Source: Desulfurococcales archaeon
GTDB taxonomy: Archaea; Thermoproteota; Thermoprotei_A; Sulfolobales; Acidilobaceae
Assembly (NCBI GenBank): GCA_015521115.1
Contig: WAOT01000021.1
Span: 1-59,390 of the forward strand
Direction of reading: 5' to 3'
Length of the DNA: 59,390 bases
Shown in pieces: positions 29,088 through 54,186 of the stretch. The translations under genes were made by a program, and so were the position numbers. Each line of letters begins with the position of its first letter. Position 1 is the stretch's first letter. A model generated the notes under the pieces. It did not search any database. It was not told where the DNA came from and saw only the letters and a list, made by a program, of their open reading frames with translations.

Positions 29088-30710
29088 TTATTTACGGATA
29101 TATCTAGCGATGAGGAGCTTGTACGCTAGGATAATGATTACTGCCACGGTGACCGCTGTGAGGGTTATGAAGGCTATCTCCGGATAATGCCCGTAGCCCA
29201 GCTCAGGCCACGGCATCCTCCTCACAGTCGGCCCGTGGCAGTTGAAGCAGGATAATGCCTCATCTGCCGGCTTGACCCCGTGGTCTACCTGCATGTACCT
29301 AACCAGTGTGACCCAGCCACCGTCCCATTTGAGGCCTGCTATGCTTGCACCTGCTTGCACGGCTTTTGTCACATTGCCTGTTGCAAAGACTATTCCGACC
29401 TTGATAGGTACGATTGTCTTGTTCGTCTTACTGTAGGGTACCACTGCGTAGTGGAGCTTGAATGGGTATATCTTGCTGTTGGGGTCGTCCTTGCTTCCTA
29501 GTGGTTTTACATAGATTATCTCATTGTTCTCGTCTGGCGTCACTGGCTCGGGGTATATGTAGACTTGCCTCGTACCATTGTACCACATGTATACTGGGGT
29601 CACGTTCTTCTCGAGGTCTAGCTTAGGCTCGTATTTAGCACCCTCAGGTATGAACTCTGCCTGACTCCAGTCTCTGTACATGTCGGTCGGGTACTTTCCA
29701 TCTGCTATGACTGGTATGTGGCATACCTGGCATGCTACCTTGTCCAGGTGGAACGTGTTTAGGAACCACCCCTTCAGGCCCTTATGTGGCTTTTCTCCGT
29801 GGCAGTCAGTGCAGTGAGGTACATTGTCCCCCTCCCTGTTCCACGTGTCAGCGGCCTTAGTGGGGAATTTATGATCCTCCACCTTGTGGCAGTCGATGCA
29901 CTGCATCCCGCTGCCCATGTGGACGTCGAACTCTTTACTGACGTTCCCTATCAGGTCGGGGCTCAGGTTGGGCCTCTTATAGTGTGGGCCCCCGCCGCTG
30001 AATGCGTGGCAGGCTAGGCAGTTCTCCTTCAAGGGCTTATTTCTAATGCTCTTCGCTATAGTATCTATTGAGATGTTGGGGTTTATCATGTACCTCCACG
30101 TCCCGTTCTCGTCCTGGTAGACGACCTTGAACCCCTTCTTAACACCCGGTGCACCGGCCATGTAGACCTTAGGATCAGCGTGGCAGGCAAGGCAGTCAAT
30201 GTTGCCTAGCTGCTCCTCGGTGGGGTTGGGCTGGGGTATGAGGCCCATGCTGACCCCGTGGCACATGCTACAGCCGCTTGCTATGAATGTGCCTTTAAGG
30301 TTCTCATAGCCCTTGGGTGGCGCCTTCAAGACGGCCTTACCTATGTAGTTGACGCTCTTGTTCCCGAGCCAGAATATTGCACCGCAGAAGTCGTTATAGG
30401 CGTATTTCCCTCCCCATAAGATTGTTCCCTTGCCTGCAATGTCGCTGACCTTGTTGGCCTCCTGGTAATGATAGCTGTGGAAGAACTCGTACACCTCATC
30501 CCTATGGCATTTGATACATGTCTTAGAGCCCTCATACTTTGTAATGTTCGCCTCTTTGAACATCTCCGTGTGGTCGACGATCTGAGATTTCACAGGCGTA
30601 TACTCAACCTCGGTCTCTTCCTCGTCAGAGTTTGCATAGGCGGCAGCCGCTCCTATTAGTATAAACGCTAGTATAAGTACAAGTAGAACCCTCTTATGGC
30701 GAGCAGACAT
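29088..30710 (-). CDS. Octaheme cytochrome c, tetrathionate-reductase (OTR)-like, membrane-anchored
   Basis: 540 residues, acting outside the membrane. A signal peptide (8-26) is followed by eight CxxCH haem sites at Cys 65, 147, 173, 231, 271, 300, 327 and 488, then a C-terminal helix at about 510-535. The order of motifs and the segment DKVACQVCHIP with a following MYRDWS resemble octaheme tetrathionate reductase-family cytochromes, which can also reduce nitrite and hydroxylamine in vitro. ATG 30710 is chosen because the signal peptide begins there; the open frame to 30782 overlaps the promoter (TATA-like ttttaacg near 30745). It is the first cytochrome of the island and needs the nearby ccm genes. 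Confidence 0.82.
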   Translation of the reverse strand: MSARHKRVLLVLILAFILIGAAAAYANSDEEETEVEYTPVKSQIVDHTEMFKEANITKYEGSKTCIKCHRDEVYEFFHSYHYQEANKVSDIAGKGTILWGGKYAYNDFCGAIFWLGNKSVNYIGKAVLKAPPKGYENLKGTFIASGCSMCHGVSMGLIPQPNPTEEQLGNIDCLACHADPKVYMAGAPGVKKGFKVVYQDENGTWRYMINPNISIDTIAKSIRNKPLKENCLACHAFSGGGPHYKRPNLSPDLIGNVSKEFDVHMGSGMQCIDCHKVEDHKFPTKAADTWNREGDNVPHCTDCHGEKPHKGLKGWFLNTFHLDKVACQVCHIPVIADGKYPTDMYRDWSQAEFIPEGAKYEPKLDLEKNVTPVYMWYNGTRQVYIYPEPVTPDENNEIIYVKPLGSKDDPNSKIYPFKLHYAVVPYSKTNKTIVPIKVGIVFATGNVTKAVQAGASIAGLKWDGGWVTLVRYMQVDHGVKPADEALSCFNCHGPTVRRMPWPELGYGHYPEIAFITLTAVTVAVIIILAYKLLIARYIRK

Positions 30711-30810
30711 CCCTAGGGGTGCCACCACGGGGTAACACCCGTTAAAAGAGTTAGCTTTATCGGAACTATGAGGATGATTCAAACCGCACAGGTAAAACCC
30801 GCTTTAAGGT

Positions 30811-37845: not shown

Positions 37846-38583
37846 TTGAATGAGGTCAGGGGAGTAAAGTCTATCATAGAATATGAGAGCTGCGCCTTGA
37901 AGGACTTACTATCAATACCGTTATCCGGAAAGAACAAGAGGCCGAGGATCTTCATATTGAGAGTTGACTCGTGGGACAACAGGCTACACGTATGGCTTCG
38001 AATTGTTGGAAGTAAAAGCCAGGTGAGGGAGGTACTAAGGAGGATCTCTGGGACGAGCAACACCTACTATACAATAATTGGGAACACATGTGGCGGAACT
38101 ATTGTATACGTGACTATGCCCGCAAAGGGGTGTAATAAGAGGATCTTCTGCCCCCTTGCCACACCATCCCCCAGGATGTACCCCATATCCACTATAATAG
38201 AGAACGGAAGGATGAAGAGTCTTGTAATAGCAGCTTACAAGAAGGATCTAGAAATACTCTCAAAGCACGGCTTCCGCTTACGTATTATTGACTACTCAGA
38301 GAACAGCGAGCTAGCACTGACAGAGAGGCAGGAGCAGATCTTGTTGAAAGCCTTCCTTAACGGCTACTACTCCTACCCTAGACGCATAGACCTGAAGGCT
38401 ATAGCTGAAAAGGTGAACCTGTCCCTCTCTACAGTTGCAGAGCTGTTAAGGAAGGCCGAGATTAAACTTGTGAAAAGATATCTGCTTGAGGAGTTATTCA
38501 TTGCTTACGACTCTAACTCAATGGGTCTAACTTCTCAACAGCCTAAAGGAAGGGAGCTTTCTAAGAAGCATGGGTCTTCCTAG
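37846..38583 (+). CDS. HTH transcriptional regulator (bacterio-opsin-activator type)
   Basis: 245 residues. Residues 158-213 are an HTH_10-type DNA-binding domain (LTERQEQILLKAFLNGYY, RIDLKAIAEKVNLSLSTVAELLRKAE). The N-terminal 150 form an alpha/beta sensor with Cys16, Cys82, Cys96 and Cys102, which might bind a metal or sense redox. Start TTG with ggaggtg 6 nt upstream. The 3' end overlaps the convergent ccmF end by 23 nt. Being inside the ccm cluster it may control the cytochrome genes. Confidence 0.75.
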   Translation: MNEVRGVKSIIEYESCALKDLLSIPLSGKNKRPRIFILRVDSWDNRLHVWLRIVGSKSQVREVLRRISGTSNTYYTIIGNTCGGTIVYVTMPAKGCNKRIFCPLATPSPRMYPISTIIENGRMKSLVIAAYKKDLEILSKHGFRLRIIDYSENSELALTERQEQILLKAFLNGYYSYPRRIDLKAIAEKVNLSLSTVAELLRKAEIKLVKRYLLEELFIAYDSNSMGLTSQQPKGRELSKKHGSS

Positions 38584-41542
38584 CGGTCAGGATATACATA
38601 GCAGACGAGATCAGACCAAGCGCTCCCATGCTTATCGCACCTGCCCAGACGAGGTTTACTCCGGGAACCACTTTGACCTTAACCACTAATCCCTCAGACT
38701 TGAGGCTCGAGTTGTTCGGGTCGAAGTGGGACGCTGTTAAGTACATGTCGACTAGGGCCTGCTCGAGTACCAGGCCGAGCTGTTGTTCGGGCACGTTTCT
38801 GATCTCAGCTATGTTATACCCTATAGCCATGACGGAGGTTGCAAGCAGAGCTTTCTGCGGTGGGAGCTCCTCCTGCAGCATTTTAACATAGTAAAGGAGC
38901 GGCTCGTGGTAGACTCCAAAGAACCCCTGCTGCACGGGCTGAGTGACTACTATGTATATGTCACTTAGGCCCTTATGGACTAGGAGGACAGGGTTCACAA
39001 GGCCATGAATACCGCTGGCCTCGCCGTTTGCCTCAAACCTTATCTTTGCTATAACTTCGTGCTCGTCCCCGTCTTCTCCAACTCTCAGTTTAATCCATAG
39101 ATAGTCCCCGCTGGGTACAGACTTTGGTAAAGATAGTGTACCTACCCCGGCCCCTCCATGACCTCCCCCGCCAGCTTGTAGGTTGGAGCTGACTACCGCT
39201 TTCAGTAGTGGGCTATTGAGTGCTTCAGCCAGTATAGGGGCGTTCCCCGTCTGAACTAGGATATATAGGTAGAGCCCTCTTGTCAGGTTAAACGGCACAC
39301 TATAACTGTAGTCCCCTATCCTCAGGGTGCCCTTTGAGATTCGCATGAAGGGATTTTCAATTATTATCGTGTTATTGCCTTTAATAGTGAAGGGGGGCGT
39401 TGTCTGGTTCTGGCCCCCAACGTATATCTCGACTTGATTAACTCTTAAACTGACATTCTCTGAGAACTCGATGGTGAAGGGGTCATTTAGCGTTATCACG
39501 TAGTAATCATGGAATCCTGGAGTGTATTCTTCCCATTTTATAGGTGCATTAATAACGAGCCTGTCCGCCACCATAGCGGCCTCAACACTTGCTCCAAGCA
39601 GCCCACCACTCTGGGTCATGTTGGGCTGTGCCTGTATGCCTGCCGTTACGTTGAACAGGGCTAGGCTTACGGTTCTGTTGTCAACGATAATCCTAGATAA
39701 GCCCCTTGTCAGCTGGACATACTCTATAGAGGCGCTAGTGTTCAAAGACATGTTTCCTACACTCACTATTAATGGTCCTTGCGAGAGAGTGTCGAGGAGG
39801 GCTTTCAGGCTCTCATTGTCCTCTACTATACTCTCAGCCTGCAACACCTCTCTCATGGCAGCCCCCAGATCCGTGTAGAATATGTGAACCGTGTCGATAG
39901 CTAGAGCTTCAAACGTCGTATTCTCTAGGTATACCCGAAGATCCGTGTGGCCGGGGTTAGGCTCGAAACCGTAGTCCATGAGTGTTAACTCGACGGGCCC
40001 CGCACTCGTTGTCTGCCCCATCTTTATCTGGTAGGTCTCGAAGTACTTGTCGTTGAAGGCGAATGTCCCGCTCAGTAGTATGCCAATAAACGCTATCAGC
40101 ATTGAGAGGTGTATGAGTTTTAGAACAGTGTCCCTAATGTTTAGACCCCGCCTCCTCCTGAATAGTGTGTGCACGAGGATGCTGGTTGTGAGCGCACCAG
40201 CGACTATTGAAGATAGTGACAGGCCTACTGCCGCCTGGAGTCTTGTCGTTTCTGGGGCCTGAGGCATGAAGTCTATCCTGCGGAGGGCTACTGCTACCGC
40301 TACCGACAGGGCGGTTATGACCCCCGTGAGTGTTAGGCCATAGAACCCTTTCCTTCCCAGATCCCTGCTTAGGAAGTATCCCGGAACGAATATTATTGAC
40401 ACTATGAAGAGTGTGTAGAGCACTGGGTGGTAGAAGTGGATACCCTCTGCCATGGTTGGAACCTTCGCCTCCCTACCCGCAGCGACGAGAATGCTGGGTA
40501 TGGCGAGGCTTGCGTAAACAAATATCGCCATAGCTATCAGGGCGGTGCCTGCTACTATAACGGAGGCTTCCGACACTTCTAGCCCGCGTAGTCTCCTCTT
40601 GAGATCATTGAAGTTGAGCCTCTCAGAGTAGTTCGCGATCTCTCTCCCCGTGATTACGAGGAATCCGACTGCTCCTATGAGGAGTATGAGGCTCCCTATA
40701 TTGGCGGCGGCGAAGCTGTGGAGGGGGCTGAGCCCGCTCCTCGTCACGTAGGGTGCTAGTAGGGCTGAGCTGGCTGTTAGGGCGGCCAGGCTCCTCCTTA
40801 GCCCGTCAAGGGGGCCTATCATGTGGAGGAAGCCAGTGGCGGCGAGCCAGACGGTTAGCTCGGAGATCTCGACCGGATCCCAACCCCAGTACCCGCCCCA
40901 GCCCAGGGTCTCATAGCTCCACATAGCCCCGAAGGTTATCCCAAACGTGAGGAGGCCCCAGCCCGCTAGGAATACACTCATGGCCCTCAGCTTGTCGCCT
41001 GTGAACAGGAAGATTAGGGAGCCTCCGAGGAGTAGTGCATATCCTCCGAAGGTGGTAAGAGGGTGGGGGATGATCCAGTAGCTCTTGAGTAGAGGGTTTA
41101 TCCCGAAACCCCCGTATCCCGGCGGGAGGACGTCGAACGCCCCATTCAGAATGGCGCTGGCCAGGGCTATGAGGAGTGTTAGCCCAGATGCGATCCTATA
41201 CTTGCGGGTGTCGTTACCCGCCCTGATAATATAGAGGACTGTGAGGGCTATCATCGTAGTATACAGGTACAGGCTACCGCCTCCTCCACTCCATGAGGCA
41301 GCTATCCTTAGGGCGAGGTTGAGGTCATCGTTCTCATTCTTAGCGACCTCCGCCAGCCTGTAGTCGAGGGTTACAAAGGGTATCATGTAGATAAACCATC
41401 CGACCAGGAAGAGGATGACTGAGGCTCTCAGCAGGTTCCTACCCCTCTCCTCATCCCCCCTTGCATCCGAGATCAGCGCGAGGATAAGGCCTATGAGGCC
41501 GATGTAGGGGAGGACGACCGCATAGTGGAGTCCTAGACTCAT
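38561..41542 (-). CDS. ccmF: Cytochrome c haem lyase subunit CcmF (enlarged)
   Basis: 993 residues against about 650 for bacterial CcmF. The membrane core carries the WWD motif GWGGYWGWDPVE at residues 214-225, in about 14 helices to residue 490. A long outer domain of some 450 residues follows (FNDKYFETYQIKMG onwards), ending in one helix near 965-985. CcmF transfers haem from CcmE to the CxxCH cysteines. No separate CcmH or CcmI is seen, so the large outer domain may take over apocytochrome handling; this is inference. ATG 41542 starts at MSLGLHYAVVLPY. Confidence 0.92.
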   Translation of the reverse strand: MSLGLHYAVVLPYIGLIGLILALISDARGDEERGRNLLRASVILFLVGWFIYMIPFVTLDYRLAEVAKNENDDLNLALRIAASWSGGGGSLYLYTTMIALTVLYIIRAGNDTRKYRIASGLTLLIALASAILNGAFDVLPPGYGGFGINPLLKSYWIIPHPLTTFGGYALLLGGSLIFLFTGDKLRAMSVFLAGWGLLTFGITFGAMWSYETLGWGGYWGWDPVEISELTVWLAATGFLHMIGPLDGLRRSLAALTASSALLAPYVTRSGLSPLHSFAAANIGSLILLIGAVGFLVITGREIANYSERLNFNDLKRRLRGLEVSEASVIVAGTALIAMAIFVYASLAIPSILVAAGREAKVPTMAEGIHFYHPVLYTLFIVSIIFVPGYFLSRDLGRKGFYGLTLTGVITALSVAVAVALRRIDFMPQAPETTRLQAAVGLSLSSIVAGALTTSILVHTLFRRRRGLNIRDTVLKLIHLSMLIAFIGILLSGTFAFNDKYFETYQIKMGQTTSAGPVELTLMDYGFEPNPGHTDLRVYLENTTFEALAIDTVHIFYTDLGAAMREVLQAESIVEDNESLKALLDTLSQGPLIVSVGNMSLNTSASIEYVQLTRGLSRIIVDNRTVSLALFNVTAGIQAQPNMTQSGGLLGASVEAAMVADRLVINAPIKWEEYTPGFHDYYVITLNDPFTIEFSENVSLRVNQVEIYVGGQNQTTPPFTIKGNNTIIIENPFMRISKGTLRIGDYSYSVPFNLTRGLYLYILVQTGNAPILAEALNSPLLKAVVSSNLQAGGGGHGGAGVGTLSLPKSVPSGDYLWIKLRVGEDGDEHEVIAKIRFEANGEASGIHGLVNPVLLVHKGLSDIYIVVTQPVQQGFFGVYHEPLLYYVKMLQEELPPQKALLATSVMAIGYNIAEIRNVPEQQLGLVLEQALVDMYLTASHFDPNNSSLKSEGLVVKVKVVPGVNLVWAGAISMGALGLISSAMYILTARKTHAS

Positions 41543-41555
41543 TTAAGCGCACCTC

Positions 41556-43016
41556 TCACAACACTATCACGTTAAGGGAGTAAAGGAGTAGCACGAGCCC
41601 CATGACCCCCAGGAACAGGTAACTAAACCTCCTCGCCTCCTCACCGGATAACTTGTTGAGCAGCCCGGCCACTTCTTCCCTCTGTGATGCCCAAACAGCT
41701 ATGCCAACAGGTAGAGATATTCCTAATGTGAAGGCAGTGAGACTGGCAGCTCCGACCTTCAGCCCCCCACTCGCAACCAGGAGCAGAGCTCCAGCAACGA
41801 GCGGGAAGCTACACTGGACGGCTAGGAGTCCGTAGAGGAAGCTGAAGCCTGTAAGCCCCCTCTTGGTAGACACGCCAACATTAAGGAAGGTCGGGACGTC
41901 CATATACCCGAGGATCCCGGCTGCGAGGAGGGTCAACGACGCCACAGGCAACAGGATCCTGCTAATACTCTGGGCCGCAGCACCTAATGCTAGGAACAGT
42001 ACTCCCACAGCCAGCGTCCCGGCGGCCGTGGCAGCCGCAGCCCTAAAGGCCGCGCCAGCCCCGAGAGGTTTACGGCGCCGCTGGGTTAGTAGGGAGAGGT
42101 ATGCGAGCAGCACGGGGAACACGCATGGAGAGAACGATGCTATGAGCCCTGCTGTGAGGGCTGTGGTTATGGCCACAGCTCCGGCAACACCCCCTTGCGC
42201 GGGATGTTCTTGTCCTACTGTTTCAACACTCTCTCCGGTCTTTCCGGCGCGAAGGCTAACTGCTATGGCGTCCAGTAGGGAGGCTATCCGTGTGGCGTTC
42301 TGGTCGTCTACGCTTGAGTTCATGTTTTTCACGATGCCGACCAATACGTGGAAGCCCCCGACGGCCTGGGACGGGCTCACATTGGAGCTGATGCTAGAGT
42401 TTATTAGGGATACCATAGGGTCTGAGCTCGCATTCTTGAGCCAGTCGAGGATGTCGCTCCTGTTCACACTCTTCGGGGTCGGGTGGCAGCTTCCACAGTA
42501 TTTCTTTAAAAGCAGGAGATCCTCTCCGCCGAACTTTCCTGTCGACAGCCTTGCCCACTCGAGCATAGTCTCAGTTATGTTTGAGCCTCCAAAGGCCCCT
42601 ACATGTCTTGCAACAGGCCTTCCATCGTCGAACACTATAAATGTAGGTGTCTCTTGGACATTGTAGTCCACGAATACCTTTATGGTGTCGTCGTTGAGCT
42701 TAAGCAGGTAGAAGCCTATGTCGCCGCCCTGCTGGCGGCATAGCTCGCTCCAGTAAGGTTCCATGGCCTGGCAGACGGGGCAGGTATCGCTTGAGAACAT
42801 TATGGCGACGGGTTTAGTACTGTTGATTACCCTGTAAAAGTCCGAGCTCCTAGTAATTACATAGTCCGGCTCCTCCTCAGCCGCAAGTGTTAACGGCCCA
42901 CTCACTAGGAAGTAGAAGAGTATCAAGCCGCCTATGATCACTGATACTAGTGCTACGACTCCCGCCTCAAGCTCCTCCCTCTTCCAAGTTTTTAGTCTAA
43001 GGCGGCCCCTACCCAA
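41556..43016 (-). CDS. Thioredoxin / haem-c site / CcdA fusion
   Basis: 486 residues. A membrane helix (18-43) is followed by a thioredoxin domain with TCPVC (Cys79, Cys82) and cis-Pro124 (ETPTF), then a c-type haem site CGSCH (Cys174, Cys177, His178) in a helical segment to about 270, then a six-helix CcdA/DsbD membrane domain with SFSPCVFP (Cys298) and VQCSFP (Cys402). CcdA moves electrons across the membrane to thioredoxin-like proteins, which keep apocytochrome CxxCH cysteines reduced. TTG start with ggtggtag upstream. It is 13 nt upstream of ccmF on the same strand. Confidence 0.85.
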   Translation of the reverse strand: MGRGRLRLKTWKREELEAGVVALVSVIIGGLILFYFLVSGPLTLAAEEEPDYVITRSSDFYRVINSTKPVAIMFSSDTCPVCQAMEPYWSELCRQQGGDIGFYLLKLNDDTIKVFVDYNVQETPTFIVFDDGRPVARHVGAFGGSNITETMLEWARLSTGKFGGEDLLLLKKYCGSCHPTPKSVNRSDILDWLKNASSDPMVSLINSSISSNVSPSQAVGGFHVLVGIVKNMNSSVDDQNATRIASLLDAIAVSLRAGKTGESVETVGQEHPAQGGVAGAVAITTALTAGLIASFSPCVFPVLLAYLSLLTQRRRKPLGAGAAFRAAAATAAGTLAVGVLFLALGAAAQSISRILLPVASLTLLAAGILGYMDVPTFLNVGVSTKRGLTGFSFLYGLLAVQCSFPLVAGALLLVASGGLKVGAASLTAFTLGISLPVGIAVWASQREEVAGLLNKLSGEEARRFSYLFLGVMGLVLLLYSLNVIVL

Positions 43017-44721: not shown

Positions 44722-45411
44722 ATGAGGAATAGTGGAAAAATACTAGCGGCCATAGTACTGATCACCATCATCACCAGCTTATCCATAACCGTTCAGCCGG
44801 TCTCTGCCTCCTCCCAGCAGAACCCCCAAAGCCTATACCCATGCTCGACATGCCATCAGAGGCTCAAGGTAAACGCGGATATAAACTACAGCTGGTACCA
44901 CGGAGTGGATCTAAGGAGTGGTGCGCATAAGGGGTTGATGTGCTCCAACTGCCATAACCCCGAGTCAGCAATGATGGAGCTACGAGGCAACATCTCCCTG
45001 GCAATTCTTGGAGTCCATAACAGGAGCCAGCTAATGGCTGACAACCTCCTCTGTGCCCAGTGCCATGCTAAGATCTACAAGGACTACCTTCTAGGTGCAC
45101 ACGGAAATAGGACTTTCGACTGCCCCAACGGCCAAGCAATAGAGGTCAAGGGGTACAAAGGGGTCAAGTGGGTCTACCATATATGTGACGACTACACAAA
45201 GCTCAAGCAGAAGCCTGCAAGGGCATGCGTAGAATGCCACAACCCCCACGACCCAACATACTATGCTATAAGCATACTACCACCCCCAGAGGGGAGGGTT
45301 CCTCCCCCCGACGAGTCCTCCATAACTTATGGTGGCATAGCAGTCCTAGTCACAGGACTAGTCCTCATCGCCGCAAGCCACTTCGTATATAAGAAGGAGC
45401 ATATGGGGTGA
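44722..45411 (+). CDS. Tetrahaem cytochrome c, membrane-anchored
   Basis: 229 residues. Signal peptide 7-30, four CxxCH sites at Cys 41, 74, 111 and 169, then a C-terminal helix near 203-222 with basic YKKEHMG tail, so the haem domain faces outward. Extra Cys134 and Cys155 could form a disulfide. It resembles NrfB/NapC-linked electron carriers by role rather than by clear sequence match. First of four tightly spaced genes: 7 nt to the Fe-S gene, which overlaps the NrfD gene, which overlaps the monohaem gene. Confidence 0.85.
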   Translation: MRNSGKILAAIVLITIITSLSITVQPVSASSQQNPQSLYPCSTCHQRLKVNADINYSWYHGVDLRSGAHKGLMCSNCHNPESAMMELRGNISLAILGVHNRSQLMADNLLCAQCHAKIYKDYLLGAHGNRTFDCPNGQAIEVKGYKGVKWVYHICDDYTKLKQKPARACVECHNPHDPTYYAISILPPPEGRVPPPDESSITYGGIAVLVTGLVLIAASHFVYKKEHMG

Positions 45412-45418
45412 GGGGCAA

Positions 45419-46471
45419 ATGGTGGAGGGCAACGGTAAGAAAATACAGGAGGGTAAGGTTGACGAGAAGAGGAGGATGGCGATAAAGATAGCGGGCCTTG
45501 CAGCACTCCTCTCCACAATCGACTTCGCAGTATTTGATAAGGAAGAGTTTAAGAAGATGCTGAAAAAGGTGGGACTAGACGATATCCTGAACGTTGCAGA
45601 AGCGAGGGAGGGGTTAGGCCATTACGAGGAGAGGGCTAAGAAGAAGGAGGAAGAGCTCAAGAATCTCTGCATGGCCGCGGCTGATAAAATATGTAGCGAG
45701 AAGGGCTTCGCCAGTGCCGACTGCCTCCTAGCGAAGAAGAAGTGCTCAAAGATAACGGTCAAGGCGACACCGCCCGACCCTAACAAGAGGTACGCCATGG
45801 CCCTAGACCTCGATAAATGCATAGGGTGCAGGAGGTGTGAGTACGCCTGTGTAATGGAGAACAACACCCTGAGAAACGCGGGCATGGACTGGATACACAT
45901 ATACGAGATGGACAGAGAGGGCCTCTCAGACCTAGAAGGTGCTAGAGACGACTACACAGTAGCGCCCAAGAAGGGGAAGGTATATGTACCAGTAGCTTGT
46001 ATGCACTGTGAGAACCCGCCCTGTACAATGGTGTGCCCAGTAAAGGCCACATGGAAAGAGAAAGACGGTATAGTGGTAGTTGACTATGACAAGTGTATAG
46101 GCTGTAAGTACTGCGTAGTAGCATGCCCATACGGTGCAAGGAGGTTCAACCTATTCCCACCAAAGCTTGACCCACTAGATCTCAACCCCAACATGCACAT
46201 CCTAGGCAACATACCAAGGCCCGTGCACGTGGTAGAGAAGTGTACATGGTGTGTCCAGAGGACTAGAGACGGTGGAGTCCCGGCGTGTGTGGAGGCATGC
46301 CCTGTCGGCGCTAGGGTCTTTGGAGACCTCAAAGACCCCAACAGCCCTATAAGGAGGGTAATAGAAGAGTATGGCGTTTTCGTGCTGAAGCCAGAGGCGG
46401 GGACGAACCCCAGGTTCTTCTACTTCTTCAGCGGAGCTAAGACGCCCCGCAAGGAGGGAGGTGGTAAGTGA
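45419..46471 (+). CDS. Four-cluster ferredoxin subunit (NrfC/PsrB/DmsB-like)
   Basis: 350 residues. Four [4Fe-4S] sites: CIGCRRCEYACVMENN near 135, CMHCENPPCTMVCP near 195, CIGCKYCVVACPYG near 222, and CTWCVQRTRDGGVPACVEACP near 275. The N-terminus has KRRMAIKIAGLAALL, a weak twin-arginine signal, compatible with the TatAC genes nearby. An unusual Cys-rich helical insert (C-x7-C-x9-C-x6-C, about 83-109) precedes the first cluster. The protein would pass electrons between the NrfD-type membrane subunit and the cytochromes. Confidence 0.9.
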   Translation: MVEGNGKKIQEGKVDEKRRMAIKIAGLAALLSTIDFAVFDKEEFKKMLKKVGLDDILNVAEAREGLGHYEERAKKKEEELKNLCMAAADKICSEKGFASADCLLAKKKCSKITVKATPPDPNKRYAMALDLDKCIGCRRCEYACVMENNTLRNAGMDWIHIYEMDREGLSDLEGARDDYTVAPKKGKVYVPVACMHCENPPCTMVCPVKATWKEKDGIVVVDYDKCIGCKYCVVACPYGARRFNLFPPKLDPLDLNPNMHILGNIPRPVHVVEKCTWCVQRTRDGGVPACVEACPVGARVFGDLKDPNSPIRRVIEEYGVFVLKPEAGTNPRFFYFFSGAKTPRKEGGGK

Positions 46472-47730
46472 TGGCGGAGAGGGGAGGAAAGGGAACCCTC
46501 TATGAGGCCGTAGAGACGTTCATCTACGTATTCAGGGAGGGGCTCAAGGGTAGTAGAGCATACAAAATGTTCCTACTAGGGCTTGGAGTAATGGCGGCCT
46601 ACGGCATCTACCTCTGGGTCTTCGTACAGCACGCGCCAATCTTCCTGGGCTCCGACAAGGGAGGCCTCTACATGACAGGCGTCAACGAGGACGTACCATG
46701 GGGGCTATACATATCGTTCTTTACACTCTGGGTCGGGATCGCAGCGTCTGCAGTAATATTCAGCTTCATAGGATACGTCTTCGGGGACAAAGACTTCAAG
46801 AAGATCATCCCCTTCGCTGAGGCACAGGCCGTTATAGCACTTATAATAACAATATGGGGCATAGTCGCAAACCTAGGCCGCCCGGAGAGAGCACTCGTAA
46901 GGCTCCCCAGGTTCGAGAACCTAAGGAGCATGCTAGACTGGGACTTCTTCGTGATCATGACCTACATGACGTTGAACGCCATAATGTACCTATACACGGT
47001 TCACAGATACAGGAAGGGGCTAGCGATACCTTGGAACGCCATCGTAGTGTACATGATTATCTCGTCACCCTTCGCCATAGGAATCCACACAGTAACAGCA
47101 TTCATTTTCCACGCGCTCACAGCAAGGCCAGCCCTCAACTCGGCACTACTAGCTCCAAGGTTCATCGCAACAGCGTTCGCCAGCGGACCAGCACTCCTAC
47201 TGCTAGTCCTCTACATACTAGAGAAGTACACTAAGGAGTTCACAGTACCTCTAAGGGTATACAGGATAACACTGAACGTGATAGCGATATCACTAACAAC
47301 AGGCCTATTCTTCACACTAGCAGAGGCCCATGAGGCGTTCTGGTACACCACTGAGCCCCTCAAAAGACACCAGCTGGAGGCGACGTTCTACGGCGGTGTG
47401 ATAAACATTGTGACATTCCTAATGTGGCTTTGGATTGCGCTCGGCACTGCGGCCGTGCTATTGAGTATGGTTCCCTCTATGAGGAGGAGTAAAGGCTCGA
47501 TTGCGTATATAGCTGCCCTCACCTTCATAGCAGTCTTTGCGGAGAAGACGCTTGCCACGGTCATACCGGGCTTCATAATAAACCCGATGAACGTCCCAGC
47601 AACCTACCACATAACCCCTATGGAGGTCTTCGTGGGGATAGGTATACACGCTACACTCCTGATTCTTTACGCGATCCTCGTGAAAGCCTATTTCTACACC
47701 CTTAGAGTGAAGGGGGGTGATGTAGTGTGA
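46471..47730 (+). CDS. NrfD/PsrC-family quinol-interacting membrane subunit
   Basis: 419 residues with about nine membrane helices, as in NrfD/PsrC. Polar residues in helices (VPWGLYISFFTLWVG near 70-85, NLGRPERA near 130, HTVTAFIFHA near 210) are those that line the quinone site in the family. ATG 46471 overlaps the Fe-S stop (TGATG) and is 6 nt after ggaggtgg, so GTG 46468 is less likely. With the Fe-S subunit it forms a membrane module oxidising or reducing quinol. Confidence 0.9.
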   Translation: MAERGGKGTLYEAVETFIYVFREGLKGSRAYKMFLLGLGVMAAYGIYLWVFVQHAPIFLGSDKGGLYMTGVNEDVPWGLYISFFTLWVGIAASAVIFSFIGYVFGDKDFKKIIPFAEAQAVIALIITIWGIVANLGRPERALVRLPRFENLRSMLDWDFFVIMTYMTLNAIMYLYTVHRYRKGLAIPWNAIVVYMIISSPFAIGIHTVTAFIFHALTARPALNSALLAPRFIATAFASGPALLLLVLYILEKYTKEFTVPLRVYRITLNVIAISLTTGLFFTLAEAHEAFWYTTEPLKRHQLEATFYGGVINIVTFLMWLWIALGTAAVLLSMVPSMRRSKGSIAYIAALTFIAVFAEKTLATVIPGFIINPMNVPATYHITPMEVFVGIGIHATLLILYAILVKAYFYTLRVKGGDVV

Positions 47731-48392
47731 GGCTCAAGGTGTTAGCTATACTCGCCCTCATAGTAGCCCTAGTCCCATACGCCCTAACCGGGCTGACACA
47801 GCCGACCGAGGAACAGGCTAGGCAAGCCTTTGACAATAGTGGGTGCAAGTCATGTCACACCTGGGATGATCTGGTTGACTGGGTGACGACCTCAGCCCAG
47901 ACCTATGGTAGTCTAGACGAGGCTGCACAAGATCTCGGGTACTCCAGCTTCGACGACCTAATGCAGACCATGAAGGGATATGCCGAGGCCTCGGGGGGCA
48001 TAACAGATGATCAGTACCAGACGATCTACCAGTACTTCCAGTACCTGTTTAACGAGACAAAGTCTCAGCAGACAACTACCACGACAACTACTACAACCAC
48101 CACCACGACAACTCAGCCTGCTACCACCACACCGCCAGCCGGAGGAAACTGCACTAGCACAGTCACCGTTACTGAGACGGTGACTACGACAGTCACTAAG
48201 ACCAAAACTGTTACCGAGACTGTCACCCACACAGAGGTTATAGTCCAGAATAACTCAAAGATCTTGGAGAGGACAGTCACAGTAACAGAGCCCCAGGCCC
48301 AGCCTCCAGCAACGCTGAAGTATTCGCCTGTTGTGGCGTTAATCCTAGTACTGGCAGGATGTGGATATTTATTATTATCAGCTAAAAAATAA
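47727..48392 (+). CDS. Monohaem cytochrome c on a Thr-rich stalk
   Basis: 221 residues. Signal peptide 1-21, one haem site CKSCH (Cys40, His44) in a small helical domain to about 110, then a run of 14 threonines and repeating TVTVTETVTTTVTKT stalk (about 113-195), and a C-terminal helix (199-216). Thr/Val stalks are typical of crenarchaeal surface proteins, probably O-glycosylated. The start is GTG, overlapping the NrfD stop by 4 nt. The stalk could let the haem domain reach from the membrane towards other cytochromes. Confidence 0.85.
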   Translation: MRLKVLAILALIVALVPYALTGLTQPTEEQARQAFDNSGCKSCHTWDDLVDWVTTSAQTYGSLDEAAQDLGYSSFDDLMQTMKGYAEASGGITDDQYQTIYQYFQYLFNETKSQQTTTTTTTTTTTTTTQPATTTPPAGGNCTSTVTVTETVTTTVTKTKTVTETVTHTEVIVQNNSKILERTVTVTEPQAQPPATLKYSPVVALILVLAGCGYLLLSAKK

Positions 48393-48566: not shown

Positions 48567-50774
48567 ATGAAGAGAGCTCTGAGCTACTTACTGCTAGCGC
48601 TTATGATACTATCACCCCTGCTAACACCCCAGCTCTTCAAGGCACACAGCACCCAGTTCACAGCTAACTCAGACATGGATAGACTCCAACAGGCCCTCCA
48701 GCTTGCAAGCCCCCAGACCCAGCAGTGTATAGAGTGTCACTTAGAGGAGACCCCCGGGATAGTATTCGACTGGCTCAACAGCAAGCACGCCTGGCACAAG
48801 CCAGCGGATGTGGCTGAGATCTATGAGGCAATAGGCTATGAGAACTACACTATAGCAGACAAGTTCCAGAACTACAACTACACGGTAGGATGCTACGAGT
48901 GTCACGGTATGTTCAAGGAGCAGAACAGGCCCGACATCGCAAGCAGTCACTTCGGCTTCCAGATAGTGGAGATAGTTACGCTCAAGGACTGTAGCCAGTG
49001 CCACATGAAGGAGGCAATGGAGATCTCATGGACAATGCACTCCTTTGCAGCACTCAACGCCCCGCTCAAGCCATGGTACGCTAAGATAGTAAAGTATGCG
49101 AAGGAGAACAACGAGACCGACACAATGCTCCCGCCAGTCTATCAGAAGACCGGCACAGGTATAGTGGACTGGCCATGGTACATGCAGTACGCTAGCAAGC
49201 TCCTCAACAACCCGAACGACCCAGAGGTACAGCAGTTCGGCACGATCTACGACTACGACTTCAAGACAATAGTGTCCCCACTATACCCTGCCAGCGGTGT
49301 GCTCAACAGTACAGGCATAATGTGGAACACCTCATATAAGAACGCTTACGTCTACCACGCATGCCTCGAGTGCCACGGTAGCCTCGTAGTCCCCTACCAG
49401 AACCAGGGCTACAGAGTACTCTACTGGGGCTGGCCTAGCAACGGTGCGGGCAGGGTAGACCCCGACGGGAGCCTTGGCACCTGTACTGCCTGCCACACAA
49501 GGCACAGCTTCAGCTTAGAGGAGGCTAGGAAGCCTGAGACCTGTGGCCAGTGCCACCTAGGCTACGACCACCCGCACATCGAGATCTACGAGCACAGCAA
49601 GCACGGTATCATATACTCAACAGAGGGTGAGAGGTGGAACTGGACAGACCTGCCATGGAGGGTTGGAGTAGACTTCAGGGCCCCAACCTGTGCGACCTGC
49701 CACATGAGCACCATAGCTGACCCCAACGGAACAATAGTCGTCTATGGCAGCCACGACCTGAGGAGCAGGATAGTATGGGACACACTCCACTTCTTCACCT
49801 TCCCCAAGCCCAAGTGGGCTGACTTCACGCAGAACGCCATAATCAAGGGAGGTAACCAGCTGAACGGTAAGGGCTTAAAGCAGAGTGGAGTCCTACCAGA
49901 AGGCTACCAGTTCAGAGTAGACCAGGCCCCACAGCCCGGCGAGCTAGCGTTCCCCAGGATTAAGAGCGTCATCTACACCGGAGAACTTAAGCAGAAGAGG
50001 GACACAATGAAGTCGGTCTGTGAGCTCTGCCACAACAGCCAGTGGGTAGACAACTACTTCACCACCTACGACCAGAACCTAATAGACTACAACGTCACCG
50101 CAAACTACGCCTTCAGCCTCCTCAAGAAAGCCTGGGATGAGGGTATTCAGGATCCGAGCAACAAGATTGACGAGTACATGGAGCTCATGTGGTACTACAT
50201 CTGGCACCACGACGGTAGGAGGTGGAGGCATGGAGCAGCAATGATGGGCCCCGACTACGCACACTGGTTCGGTATTGTTGACACCGTAATGGACAAGCTG
50301 GGAAGGATGGTGAGCTACTACCAGACGGCCCACCGTATAATAGAGCTGCAGAACGAGATCCAGCAGCTGCAGGCACAGGCAGGCAACAACACTCAGGTAC
50401 AGCAGCAGATCCAGCAGCTACAGAACCAGCTAATTCAGCTCCAGCAGAGACTACAGGCAATGGAGGCACAGATACCGCAGCTCCAGAACAACATCTCCAG
50501 CCTCAAGGCCCAGTTCGAGAACCTGGACATGAACCTATCCGAGGTGAGCCAGCAGACTGAGAACCTAAACAAGACCGTCTCAGGACTAAACGCGAACGTC
50601 ACCGCCCTACAGAACAATGTAAGCAAGATCCAGAGCACAATCGACGAGATCAGGTCAACAGCCGAGGAGGCAACGGCTAAGGCAGGAAGGGCGGGCGTGG
50701 CCCTTGGCATCGGCGTGATCGGTCTCATAATCGCCGCAATAGCCCTAGGCCTAGCGGCGAGGAAACCAGCTTAA
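48567..50774 (+). CDS. Octaheme HAO-family cytochrome with coiled coil and membrane anchor
   Basis: 735 residues, outside the membrane. Signal peptide 5-26; haem sites at Cys 54, 109, 142, 266, 306, 326, 375 and 485. The surrounding blocks match hydroxylamine oxidoreductase: ECHLEETPGIVFDW, GCYECHG, GRVDPDGSLGTCTACHTRHSF, ETCGQCHLGYDHPHIEIYEHSKHG, APTCATCHMS, and HHDGRRWRHGAAMMGPDY. Tyr564 in GPDY sits where HAO has its haem-crosslinking Tyr, as far as I recall the alignment; the usual following HWHG reads HWFG here. Then a Gln/Leu/Asn coiled coil (588-705) and one C-terminal helix (711-731). Family members either oxidise hydroxylamine/hydrazine or reduce nitrite and hydroxylamine. Confidence 0.88.
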   Translation: MKRALSYLLLALMILSPLLTPQLFKAHSTQFTANSDMDRLQQALQLASPQTQQCIECHLEETPGIVFDWLNSKHAWHKPADVAEIYEAIGYENYTIADKFQNYNYTVGCYECHGMFKEQNRPDIASSHFGFQIVEIVTLKDCSQCHMKEAMEISWTMHSFAALNAPLKPWYAKIVKYAKENNETDTMLPPVYQKTGTGIVDWPWYMQYASKLLNNPNDPEVQQFGTIYDYDFKTIVSPLYPASGVLNSTGIMWNTSYKNAYVYHACLECHGSLVVPYQNQGYRVLYWGWPSNGAGRVDPDGSLGTCTACHTRHSFSLEEARKPETCGQCHLGYDHPHIEIYEHSKHGIIYSTEGERWNWTDLPWRVGVDFRAPTCATCHMSTIADPNGTIVVYGSHDLRSRIVWDTLHFFTFPKPKWADFTQNAIIKGGNQLNGKGLKQSGVLPEGYQFRVDQAPQPGELAFPRIKSVIYTGELKQKRDTMKSVCELCHNSQWVDNYFTTYDQNLIDYNVTANYAFSLLKKAWDEGIQDPSNKIDEYMELMWYYIWHHDGRRWRHGAAMMGPDYAHWFGIVDTVMDKLGRMVSYYQTAHRIIELQNEIQQLQAQAGNNTQVQQQIQQLQNQLIQLQQRLQAMEAQIPQLQNNISSLKAQFENLDMNLSEVSQQTENLNKTVSGLNANVTALQNNVSKIQSTIDEIRSTAEEATAKAGRAGVALGIGVIGLIIAAIALGLAARKPA

Positions 50775-50928: not shown

Positions 50929-53112
50929 ATGAGCGCCAGAAAGCTGGCTCCACGGGACTCTAGGATAGTGCTGGCCCTAGGTAGAACCGCTATTGTCCTC
51001 GCCCTGGCGGTTCTAGCAGTCCCCGGCCTGAAGAGCGGTCTCGTGAGGGGGGATCCTTGGACTCCCCTCTCGTATATACTCTTAGGGGTGGGGTCTGCTC
51101 TAGCCATTATACCCTATCAGGGCTCTGACAGGAGCCGTATACGCCTAGCAGGGATCATAATCGTAGTTCTTGCAGCCTACATTGGGGTGATGCTCGGAGA
51201 GCCTGAGGTTGGTATAAGATCCTCTCTAGTGATCTCAGTCGCATCGATAGGGCTTGGCCTACTCCTTGGTGGGCCGGAGGGGCATGCACTCCTAGCCTCC
51301 CCCTCACCGGTCTTAGCCGGTTTCATCGCCTCCCGCGTATATCCAGGGCTCTCCGGGGTCGAGGGCCTCGGGTTACTAGTGGTGTCGCTAGCACCACTAA
51401 TACCAGACAGCTTGAGGGGTATGAGTGAGGGCAGGCTTACAGCTCTCTCAAGCATTATAGTATCGTTAATTAGTGCAAGCGCGTTGATAGTCTCCGGTAA
51501 ACCCTTCCTCCTCCGCCTATCACTGCTCACCATAGCACTGGGCGCGTTAGCTGCCTATAGCGAGGTCGTCGAGAATATGGCGGGTATCGGGTTCTCCGCC
51601 TTCATAGGAATGATAGCGGGCATAGCATCCTACAAGTACACTCACGACCTTACCACGATGGCGGTAGTTACGGTAGTGCTGAGTTTGGCCCTAGCCCCCA
51701 TAGCCGCACCGGCAGAGAACCGTAGTAGGAGGCTCCTCTCACTTCTAGTGCTAACGACTGTTCTACTCTCCACTCTAAGCGTCCTACCGGGTAAGACTGC
51801 GGGTGGAGGAGGCCTTGTCACTCCCGATAGTATAGATGTTAGTGTCTCAAACTCCAACCTTACCGTAAAACTCTCGGGGGCTCCGGCTGAGAGGTATGAC
51901 GAGATCCTAGCGGCAGTTGAGAACCTCTCTCAGGCAGTTGAGGGGGTTGGGGACAGGAGTGTGACTAGGCTAATACTGGAGGGCCGAGTTATAGCCCTCC
52001 CACAGCTGAACGGCATAATTGAGAACGCTACCATAATAGACTTAGAGACGGGTAGCAACGTCTCAGCACTCATAACTAACGCGAGCAACTTCCTACTGCT
52101 CAACCTGTCGAATCCGGCAATAGTCTCATATGCCGTGGGAGAGGAGAACGGGACGTACCTTCTAAGGGCCTCCATTAACGTTAAGGGCCTCCTAATACCT
52201 TGGACTCTCACAAACGGGGAGACAATCTCGCCCGTCCATAACGTGCTAATAGTGAACTTCTCGAGCCCAATGGAGTTCAAAGTGGAGACGCTAAACGGTG
52301 CATACACTATACACATATACTCTGCCGTAATAGCGTCCCCACGCCTCCTAGGTGGTAAAGGCAACATAACGAGCACGCCCTTGGGTTCACTAATGTCTGA
52401 AGCGGTCATCGGGGTGAGGAAGGGCGAGATCTGGCTACCATCGGGTTCGATCATTGGAATACCGCTAGACGTCGGTGTTGAAGGGTACAACTTATGGGTA
52501 GCGAGAGCCCAACTCCAGAAAAGCAACCCTGAAGCCTCAAAAGCAATCCAAGCGCTCCCCGAGCTAGTACTACAAAGGGGGCAACCCTCCCCTCCTACCG
52601 CTGTTGTAGCCAAGTATGTTGAGGCCGACCTTGAAGTGAATAGATCGAGGGCTTCGTGTAGAGCGAACGTTTACGCCGGTAGCGCTGAGTGCACGTGCAC
52701 GTATATGGTGAAGTCTAGGAGGATGATCTCTGCTGAGATAGCCAGCATAGACCCCCCAAGGCTAACATATAGGGAGATGGTAAACGTGAGCTACCTGAGG
52801 CTAAAGCTACTCGAGGGATCACCCCGAGACCCGTACACCCTCCTAGCTTCGGCAGCCCTGGTTGCAGGGGAAAACGGGAGTGTGGGAGAACTACTGCTGG
52901 CATACCGTTACGCGGACGTCATGGACAACGTGAGCAACATAGCAATCCCGCTCCACACAGTCCAAGACTACCCCTTCTACTCGCTAGGAGGCCTATCCCC
53001 CTGGCTAGTCCTAGCAGCCGCACTTGTATGGGTACGTGGGGAGCCTGCTATTAACCTCGGAGCCCACAGAGAGGGAGAGGCTGATAGGGGTGGAGCCGGA
53101 AATGGACAGTAA
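50929..53112 (+). CDS. Large membrane protein of unknown function
   Basis: 727 residues, no family recognised. Residues 17-285 contain eight or nine hydrophobic helices; from about 290 there is a long outer domain with many NxS/T sites, and a final hydrophobic stretch near 694-706 followed by an acidic, Gly-rich tail. Two adjacent cysteines in CTC (about residue 588) may form a disulfide. The start ATG has gagtga upstream. It follows the HAO-like gene by 154 nt and overlaps cbf5 by 11 nt. It could be a partner of the cytochromes, but only position suggests this. Confidence 0.6.
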   Translation: MSARKLAPRDSRIVLALGRTAIVLALAVLAVPGLKSGLVRGDPWTPLSYILLGVGSALAIIPYQGSDRSRIRLAGIIIVVLAAYIGVMLGEPEVGIRSSLVISVASIGLGLLLGGPEGHALLASPSPVLAGFIASRVYPGLSGVEGLGLLVVSLAPLIPDSLRGMSEGRLTALSSIIVSLISASALIVSGKPFLLRLSLLTIALGALAAYSEVVENMAGIGFSAFIGMIAGIASYKYTHDLTTMAVVTVVLSLALAPIAAPAENRSRRLLSLLVLTTVLLSTLSVLPGKTAGGGGLVTPDSIDVSVSNSNLTVKLSGAPAERYDEILAAVENLSQAVEGVGDRSVTRLILEGRVIALPQLNGIIENATIIDLETGSNVSALITNASNFLLLNLSNPAIVSYAVGEENGTYLLRASINVKGLLIPWTLTNGETISPVHNVLIVNFSSPMEFKVETLNGAYTIHIYSAVIASPRLLGGKGNITSTPLGSLMSEAVIGVRKGEIWLPSGSIIGIPLDVGVEGYNLWVARAQLQKSNPEASKAIQALPELVLQRGQPSPPTAVVAKYVEADLEVNRSRASCRANVYAGSAECTCTYMVKSRRMISAEIASIDPPRLTYREMVNVSYLRLKLLEGSPRDPYTLLASAALVAGENGSVGELLLAYRYADVMDNVSNIAIPLHTVQDYPFYSLGGLSPWLVLAAALVWVRGEPAINLGAHREGEADRGGAGNGQ

Positions 53113-54186
53113 TGATATCACAGCAAGAGGACGCAAATTCCTCGAGGAGGTCAACAGCTTCTGCGGCTATAGGGGGGAATGGCTTGTGAAACATGAGGAG
53201 CCAACACAAGAGGGCTGGGGCTGGATCCCGTGGGAGAGGCCCACGGAGAAGTACATAGAGTACGGCGTCATAAACCTGGACAAACCCCCAGGGCCAACGA
53301 GCCACGAGGTAGTCGCATGGATTAAGAGGATGTTTAACCTCCGGAGGGCGGGCCACGGGGGCACCCTAGAGCCCTACCCCCAGCCTGGGGAGGGCGGGGA
53401 GATCCTAAGGTAACCGGAGTCCTCCCCGTGGCCCTGGCCAGGATGACGAGGGTAGTCGGCTCCGTAATACACTCGAGCAAGGAGTACGTGTGTGTCATGC
53501 AGCTCCACAAGCCGGTCGAGGAGGAGAGGCTTAGGGAGGTGATAAGAGAGTTCACAGGCACCATCTACCAGAGACCCCCCGTAAGGAGTAGCGTGAAAAG
53601 GGCCCTGAGGACTAAGAGGGTGAACGAGATAGAGCTCCTAGAATACACAGGGAAATACGCCCTCCTCCGAGTGGACTGCGAAGCCGGAACATACATGAGA
53701 AAGCTCTGCTGGGACATGGGGCTAGTACTCGGCGTGGGAGCCCATATGAGAGAGCTGAGGAGGACGAGAACCGGGCCATTCCATGAGGACAAGAACCTCG
53801 TAAGAATGCACGACGTCGCATTCGCCCTCATAAGGCTCAGGGAGGAGGGCAAGGACGACCTCCTAAGACGCACAGTACTACCAGGGGAGTTCAGCATATG
53901 TCACCTCCCAAAGGTAGTAGTCAGGGATAGTGCCGTGGAGAGTATTGTCCATGGTGCAACGCTGAACATGCCGGGAATAAGCATGGTTCAAGACACCGTC
54001 AAGAAGGGAGACATGGTCGCAATGCTCACCTTGAAGGGCGAACTGATAGGCCTGGGCGTAGCTGAAGTGTCGGCGGGAGAGATGCTAGAGCTGGAGAGAG
54101 GGGTAGCGGTTAGGCCTAAGAGGATCATAATGGAGCCGGGCCTATACCCGAGAATGTGGAAGAGGAAGCCAAAGGCTGAGAGCTAG
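53102..54186 (+). CDS. cbf5: tRNA/rRNA pseudouridine synthase Cbf5, split by an archaeal intron
   Basis: The coding sequence is join(53102..53369, 53402..54186), 350 residues. Read straight through, the frame breaks just after AGHGGTL. Removing 32 nt restores the conserved [18 protein letters not shown] block, with the catalytic Asp90 codon formed across the joint (G + AT). The TruB fold (55-230; [22 protein letters not shown]) is followed by a PUA domain (about 255-340; [20 protein letters not shown]). It is the catalytic part of H/ACA RNPs. ATG 53102 has ggtggag 7 nt upstream and overlaps the preceding gene by 11 nt; the frame is open to 53024 but homologues do not need it. Confidence 0.93.
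53370..53401 (+). other. 32-nt bulge-helix-bulge intron in cbf5
   Basis: The predicted fold has two AGA bulges (53368-53370 and 53400-53402), separated by a 4-bp helix of 53364-53367 (CCCT) with 53396-53399 (GGGG, one G-U), and an inner stem 53371-53375 with 53391-53395 continuing to 53378-53382 with 53386-53390. Cutting each bulge after its second base joins ...CTAG to ATCCTAAG. An outer 10-bp helix, 53351-53360 with 53424-53433, is perfect but separated from the core. The tRNA-splicing endonuclease would remove it. Confidence 0.87.

Follow-up and report, generated by a model that had tools for sequence, protein, structure and literature searches.

A stalked HAO-family octahaem cytochrome c from a Desulfurococcales archaeon carries no tyrosine at the P460 cross-link position

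The HAO family of octahaem cytochromes c has both oxidative and reductive members, and one gene in a 59,390-nucleotide stretch of Desulfurococcales DNA (here called the window) raises the question of which kind its product is. The initial annotation had taken a tyrosine of this protein, Tyr564, for the residue that forms the P460 cross-link of oxidative HAO. The gene and the features of its catalytic part are as follows.

48567..50774, + strand: octahaem cytochrome c of the HAO family, 735 aa, ATG start
Domain layout of that protein: signal peptide; catalytic domain, residues ~40-570; coiled-coil stalk, ~585-705; C-terminal transmembrane helix, ~711-731
48726..50036, + strand: eight CxxCH haem-binding motifs, at residues 54, 109, 142, 266, 306, 326, 375, and 485
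49566..49571, + strand: Asp334-His335, aligned with Asp267-His268 of Nitrosomonas europaea HAO (NeHAO)
50247..50273, + strand: GPDYAHWFG motif, residues 561-569, with Tyr at 564 and HWFG at 566-569

The open reading frame at 48567-50774 is a genuine HAO-family octahaem protein. Eight CxxCH sites, the HAO blocks, the GPDY tyrosine, and HWFG had all been described for it and were all confirmed. Its membership of the HAO family and its archaeal origin likewise stood: the Pfam multihaem model PF13447 scored 96.2 bits (cut-off 21.9), and the best solved relative in the PDB came from Ignicoccus (4QO5, E=2.9e-74), with N. europaea HAO at E=7.5e-18. The haems follow the HAO order, the CHxRHxFS block of haem 5 is present, and the haem 4 motif (residues 266-270) aligns with the catalytic haem motif of NeHAO, C229xxC232H233. 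All eight motifs are CxxCH, and the CxxCK catalytic haem motif of NrfA and octahaem ONR was not found in the protein. Because orthologues with eight CxxCH, at 60-77% identity, occur across several families of the order, the reading frame lies far beyond chance.

The proposed role of Tyr564 did not survive alignment with NeHAO, for which we verified the mature numbering (in it, the Tyr in HVNPGGWTYTEGWGPM is residue 467). When 54 family members were aligned, NeHAO Tyr467 fell over His566, two residues after Tyr564. Across 84 repeat alignments, made from random subsets with seven MAFFT settings, Tyr467 paired with His566 in 75 and with Trp567 in nine, and never with Tyr564. The choice between His566 and Trp567 is one of placing a single-residue gap; the Trp567 pairing would be an alternative, and by neither pairing is Tyr564 rescued. 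As judged from these alignments, then, Tyr564 is not the P460 cross-linking residue, and the real site is two residues on. The cross-link column holds Tyr in all nine oxidative-type sequences, His, Trp, or Gln in the bacterial non-oxidative group, and His, Gln, or Phe, never Tyr, in the clade of the window octahaem. His566 fits a 2025 ancestral reconstruction, in which the key site is His in reductive HAOs and Tyr in oxidative ones (PMC12758564).

The tyrosine of the PDY motif, which reductive relatives were supposed to lack, is in fact carried by all but one of the 13 bacterial octahaems in the non-oxidative clade; it is unfit as a marker of oxidative HAO. At the Tyr564 position our clade has Tyr in 7/15 and Phe in 8/15 sequences, with at least five Y/F changes on the tree, and the nearest orthologues (~76-78% identity) carry Phe. 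Since the two residues interchange among close orthologues, Tyr564 is not an essential cross-linker. In HAO the cross-linking tyrosine is supplied by the neighboring subunit (PMC12758564), so that measuring how far Tyr564 lies from haem 4 in a model of a single chain would be uninformative; in an AF2 run whose input included 15 ammonia-oxidizer HAOs, the mean pLDDT was 45.9 and the catalytic domain was unusable, so Tyr564 could not be placed. Profile-profile alignment of the archaeal proteins to oxidative HAO with hhalign was discarded at the C terminus, where it slipped as the coiled coils were pulled together, and that of the bacterial non-oxidative group to oxidative HAO gave the ungapped variant, with Trp at Tyr467. 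No reliable equivalent could be assigned to NeHAO Tyr334, in whose column even the oxidative sequences are divided between Y and N.

A maximum-likelihood tree was built from 51 proteins, a set without epsilonproteobacterial Hao. The clade of the window octahaem has support of 100/100 and its sister is the group of the Ignicoccus protein 4QO5 (IhOCC), at 95/90. These two, the bacterial non-oxidative octahaems, and a set of Pyrodictiaceae paralogues together split from oxidative HAO (100/99), with the deeper order less certain where long branches meet. The spacing of haems 4 and 5 follows the same division. Between them there are 10 residues in oxidative HAO (9/9), 37-42 in the bacterial non-oxidative group, and 48 in IhOCC-like proteins; the window octahaem and other members of its clade have 40, and the Ignicoccus and Pyrodictiaceae members 46-49. 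Between haems 3 and 4 the clade has 123-174, where HAO, IhOCC, and the non-oxidative octahaems of bacteria have 44-57; the 67-117 residues inserted at this place (here residues ~147-265) set the clade apart from HAO and IhOCC. The Asp334-His335 pair is invariant in the clade and kept in both the bacterial clade and oxidative HAO, and IhOCC-like proteins have Val at the His335 position. On this combined pattern the window octahaem appears to be a non-oxidative HAO-family member, grouped with IhOCC and the bacterial non-oxidative octahaems.

Comparison with named systems places the protein more closely. By sequence it is an orthologue of Pyrodictium delaneyi Pyrde_0496, with which it shares its clade (about 50-55% identity), the same gene cassette, the stalk, and the C-terminal helix; unlike the window octahaem, which is directly downstream of the cassette, Pyrde_0496 lies ~10 kb from it, has a stalk of ~180 rather than ~128 residues, and has Phe in place of Tyr564. 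It is also very probably an orthologue of the Ignicoccus hospitalis protein that we take, from gene position, to be Igni_1359, given catalytic domains that are 63% identical, eight haems, the long haem 3-4 insertion, and GPDYAHWYG, although that protein has neither stalk, C-terminal helix, nor adjoining cassette. The 4QO5-like gene of I. hospitalis is, again by position, presumably Igni_0955. IhOCC matches the window octahaem by profile at E=1.9e-170 (the E-value above being from phmmer), with the same haem number and order, but at about 35% identity and without the ~67-residue haem 3-4 insertion, with Val for His335, a GQDWT motif, and no stalk. NeHAO (1FGJ/4FAS) shares the octahaem fold family, the CHTRHxFS block, Asp267/His268, and an ending in a short coil-like stretch and hydrophobic C-terminal helix, but differs in having Tyr467 where the window octahaem has His566, in its haem 4-5 spacing (10 vs 40), and in its clade. 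Kuenenia HAOr kuste4574, also an octahaem of the HAO family, is published as nitrite-reducing with the Tyr cross-link absent, though it is bacterial and shows no stalk in the matched region; PDB 6H5L, which we take to be this protein, has the aligned motif QQDVSWWWG, with Tyr at neither site.

Upstream of the octahaem lies a cassette of cytochrome, Fe-S, and NrfD-type genes, and a membrane protein adjoins it downstream.

44722..45411, + strand: tetrahaem cytochrome c with hydrophobic helices at the N and C termini
45419..46471, + strand: Fe-S ferredoxin subunit of DsrO/NrfC/TtrB type, with a twin-arginine-like start (KRRMAIK)
46468..47730, + strand: NrfD/DsrP-type integral membrane quinol oxidoreductase (PF03916, 115.8 bits), with a 4-bp overlap with the preceding gene
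47727..48392, + strand: monohaem cytochrome c with a Thr-rich linker and C-terminal hydrophobic helix, with a 4-bp overlap with the preceding gene
50929..53112, + strand: multi-pass membrane protein, 727 aa, adjoining the octahaem

The cassette genes run in the order tetrahaem, Fe-S, NrfD, monohaem, with gaps of 7, -4, and -4 bp, and 174 bp separate the end of the monohaem gene from the octahaem start. Cassette and octahaem are conserved together in three further genomes of the same family. In P. delaneyi the order is monohaem, NrfD, Fe-S, tetrahaem, monohaem, octahaem, corresponding to Pyrde_0485-0496 as published (PMC8105010), and in Pyrolobus fumarii the cassette is at 1,040-1,044 kb and the octahaem orthologue at 1,242 kb. 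The 727-aa protein had no Pfam, NCBIfam, or PHROG match; it follows the octahaem in 5/5 other loci with downstream sequence in the families f1 and f10. Cytochrome c maturation genes stand next to the cytochrome cluster (38561-43016, - strand), namely a CcmF/NrfE-like haem lyase of 993 aa beside a thioredoxin-domain protein with one CxxCH.

The C-terminal part of the octahaem consists of two further features.

50319..50696, + strand: coiled-coil stalk with 3.45-residue periodicity, whose PDB relatives are mostly trimeric coiled coils, including Sulfolobus SlaB (8QOX)
50697..50762, + strand: C-terminal transmembrane helix

A coiled coil and a C-terminal membrane helix had been proposed from the outset, and both were upheld. 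The ~128-residue region between catalytic domain and last helix has a 3.45-residue hydrophobic period above the 95% level of shuffles, with 82% of a/d positions hydrophobic in the best heptad register. AF2 returned the stalk as a long, nearly continuous helix (pLDDT about 70-95 over residues ~571-640), and the anchor after it is a strongly hydrophobic 19-mer with a mean hydropathy of 2.72. These parts are not, however, the unusual additions that they had been called, since they occur through most of the clade at variable length, and the end of NeHAO is similar. Complete sequences from f1 and f10 have stalks of 100-128 residues and Pyrodictiaceae (f7) of 173-196, whereas three Ignicoccus-type genomes (f6) have 25-28 residues without a membrane helix. 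By estimate the stalk spans about 15-20 nm in the window octahaem and 26-29 nm in those of Pyrodictiaceae; the S-layer-less Ignicoccus has none. In one Pyrodictiaceae genome the octahaem orthologue has in-frame stops and frame changes and is apparently a pseudogene.

HAO-type enzymes are trimers, which makes a symmetry match between the octahaem and a trimeric stalk a natural one. In SlaB (8QOX) the C-terminal part is a trimeric coiled coil, with a helix of 132 residues (PMC10903991), that leads into a membrane helix; it shows weak similarity to the octahaem stalk, but SlaB has no haem domain and the similarity may be only one of coiled-coil composition. Resemblance of the stalk to SlaB, SMC, Rad50, and others is largely of this kind, and an excess of N-glycosylation sequons in the stalk (6 vs 1.4 expected) was dropped because the sequons are absent from several orthologues. 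Ignicoccus lacks an S-layer, which nearly all its relatives have (PMC5744192). That the stalk is present with an S-layer and missing without one suggests placement near the S-layer, as a correlation resting on one event. The quasi-periplasmic space of P. fumarii measures 40 nm (PMC3156397), and the stalk of its octahaem would span about 26 nm. We offer as a speculation, with the odds against it, that the octahaem trimer is carried by a SlaB-like trimeric stalk, longer or shorter according to quasi-periplasmic width, so that cassette-fed terminal reduction would take place at the S-layer. A 2017 review knew of no archaeal S-layer-associated enzyme except a Staphylothermus stalk protease (PMC5744192), and the stalk and S-layer pattern raises the question of whether archaeal respiratory enzymes sit at a set height in the envelope.

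Taken with its neighbors, the octahaem is probably a quinol-linked reductase whose substrate is nitrite or hydroxylamine. The NrfD-type protein (46468-47730), together with the Fe-S subunit, would oxidize quinol, and electrons would pass via the tetrahaem and monohaem cytochromes to an octahaem trimer, where nitrite or hydroxylamine would be reduced at haem 4. The octahaem would thereby act as a terminal reductase facing outward from the membrane, tethered by a presumably trimeric coiled-coil stalk and the C-terminal helix, which would hold it some 15-20 nm out. The reductive reading is favored by a tree position outside oxidative HAO, His566 at the key site, and the haem 4-5 spacing of 40, and also by the kept Asp334/His335 pair, the quinol cassette, ammonification in P. 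fumarii, and co-occurrence with NO reductase. IhOCC, reportedly described by Parey et al. in 2016, is said to lack the Tyr cross-link and to reduce both nitrite and hydroxylamine.

The rest of the genome bears on this reading in both directions. It encodes a quinol NO reductase (PDB 3AYF, E=2.6e-63) and a NiFe hydrogenase. NO reductase and octahaem co-occur, with 8/17 vs 12/81 genomes (Fisher p=0.006; within the family p=0.017), a comparison in which kinship is ignored. Searches of the same genome gave no NrfA, no cd1 NirS, and no nitrate reductase. Its single PF00384 molybdoenzyme is nearest to thiosulfate/polysulfide reductase, so that there is no obvious internal source of nitrite, which counts against a nitrogen-oxide substrate. 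At that locus (contig C35, 7162-14961), the quinol NO reductase adjoins the Phs/Psr-type molybdoenzyme with its Fe-S and NrfD-like subunits, and a Nitrate_red_del-type chaperone and a MobA-like protein are also encoded.

P. fumarii reduces nitrate to ammonia and does not grow with elemental sulfur (PMC3156397). Its chromosome has eight open reading frames with at least two CxxCH (or one and a CxxCK), three of them HAO-family octahaems; over the whole chromosome CxxCK is absent from the multihaem frames, none of the frames scanned gave an NrfA-type match, and, as weak evidence, the strict siroheme pattern PS00365 found nothing in a search by that pattern alone. As ammonification thus proceeds without an NrfA-type match and without CxxCK, an HAO-family octahaem, any of the three, is likely to be the nitrite-to-ammonia enzyme of P. 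fumarii; with three such proteins, ammonification is not attributable to the orthologue of the window octahaem alone. The latter is nonetheless a testable candidate for the nitrite reduction gap in Pyrolobus, where nitrate goes to ammonia and no NrfA-type cytochrome was found.

Among alternatives, reduction of a sulfur compound (sulfite, tetrathionate, or polysulfide) in place of a nitrogen oxide survives best, though we regard it as unlikely. DsrOP-type Fe-S/NrfD cassettes serve sulfur respiration too, a point against the nitrogen-oxide reading, and the cassette subunits matched DsrO and DsrP best, both below cut-off (188.9 bits against 200 for the Fe-S subunit; 200.9 against 350 for the NrfD-type protein). 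The sole molybdoenzyme of the genome is, as noted, Phs/Psr-like; Ignicoccus is a sulfur reducer, and the finding of orthologues in sulfur reducers again speaks against nitrogen oxides. A published proposal assigns a sulfur role to the clade I HAO-family proteins found in Desulfobacterota (PMC9213671). Likeness to DsrOP/NrfCD, however, indicates a quinol module and not a substrate, and P. fumarii has both orthologue and cassette, yet ammonifies nitrate and does not grow on elemental sulfur (PMC3156397).

Somewhat less likely still, the stalked octahaem might be an electron conduit rather than a substrate-specific enzyme, with acceptors outside the cell, for example Fe(III) oxide at the S-layer. 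The long stalk would suit such a role, and Pyrde_0496 is made on ferrihydrite, where the monohaem protein Pyrde_0485 is more abundant and P. delaneyi requires mineral contact (PMC8105010). Mass spectrometry detected Pyrde_0496 on nitrate as well, however, and the 60-fold rise on ferrihydrite belongs to a paralogue, Pyrde_0784 (PMC8105010); moreover, the catalytic pair at haem 4 is conserved and would be superfluous in a pure wire. Presence on both nitrate and ferrihydrite equally means that expression is no specific pointer to nitrogen oxides, and it counts against nitrite as the substrate that P. delaneyi strain Hulk reportedly does not use it and has no obvious nitrite reductase (PMC5556600). 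The octahaem at the expected Pyrde_0784 position (774830-776824 of the P. delaneyi genome) adjoins a 13-haem protein and is a distant HAO-family member, at 26-34% identity to the window octahaem, with a counterpart in P. fumarii.

Oxidation of hydroxylamine, with Tyr564 cross-linking haem 4 of the next subunit into P460, has in its favor a tyrosine in the right loop and the conserved Asp334/His335, but is very improbable given the pairing in 0/84 alignments, Phe in close orthologues, the same tyrosine in 12/13 bacterial non-oxidative octahaems, the tree position, the haem 4-5 spacing of 40 vs 10, and, weakly, the lack of a PF02461 (AMO) match in the genome, a search that gave none in control genomes either. 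Archaeal P460-type hydroxylamine oxidation is thereby removed as a false lead.

Two further observations concern the window itself. A second octahaem, at 29088-30782 on the - strand, belongs to the tetrathionate reductase (OTR) family (PF11783, 92 bits; TIGR04315, 231.6 bits, under its cut-off of 375). At 53024-54186 on the + strand, cbf5 (tRNA/rRNA pseudouridine synthase), for which a folding calculation showed no excess folding, is apparently split after GHGGTLEP by ~35 nt and continues in another frame, presumably resembling the known crenarchaeal cbf5 intron.
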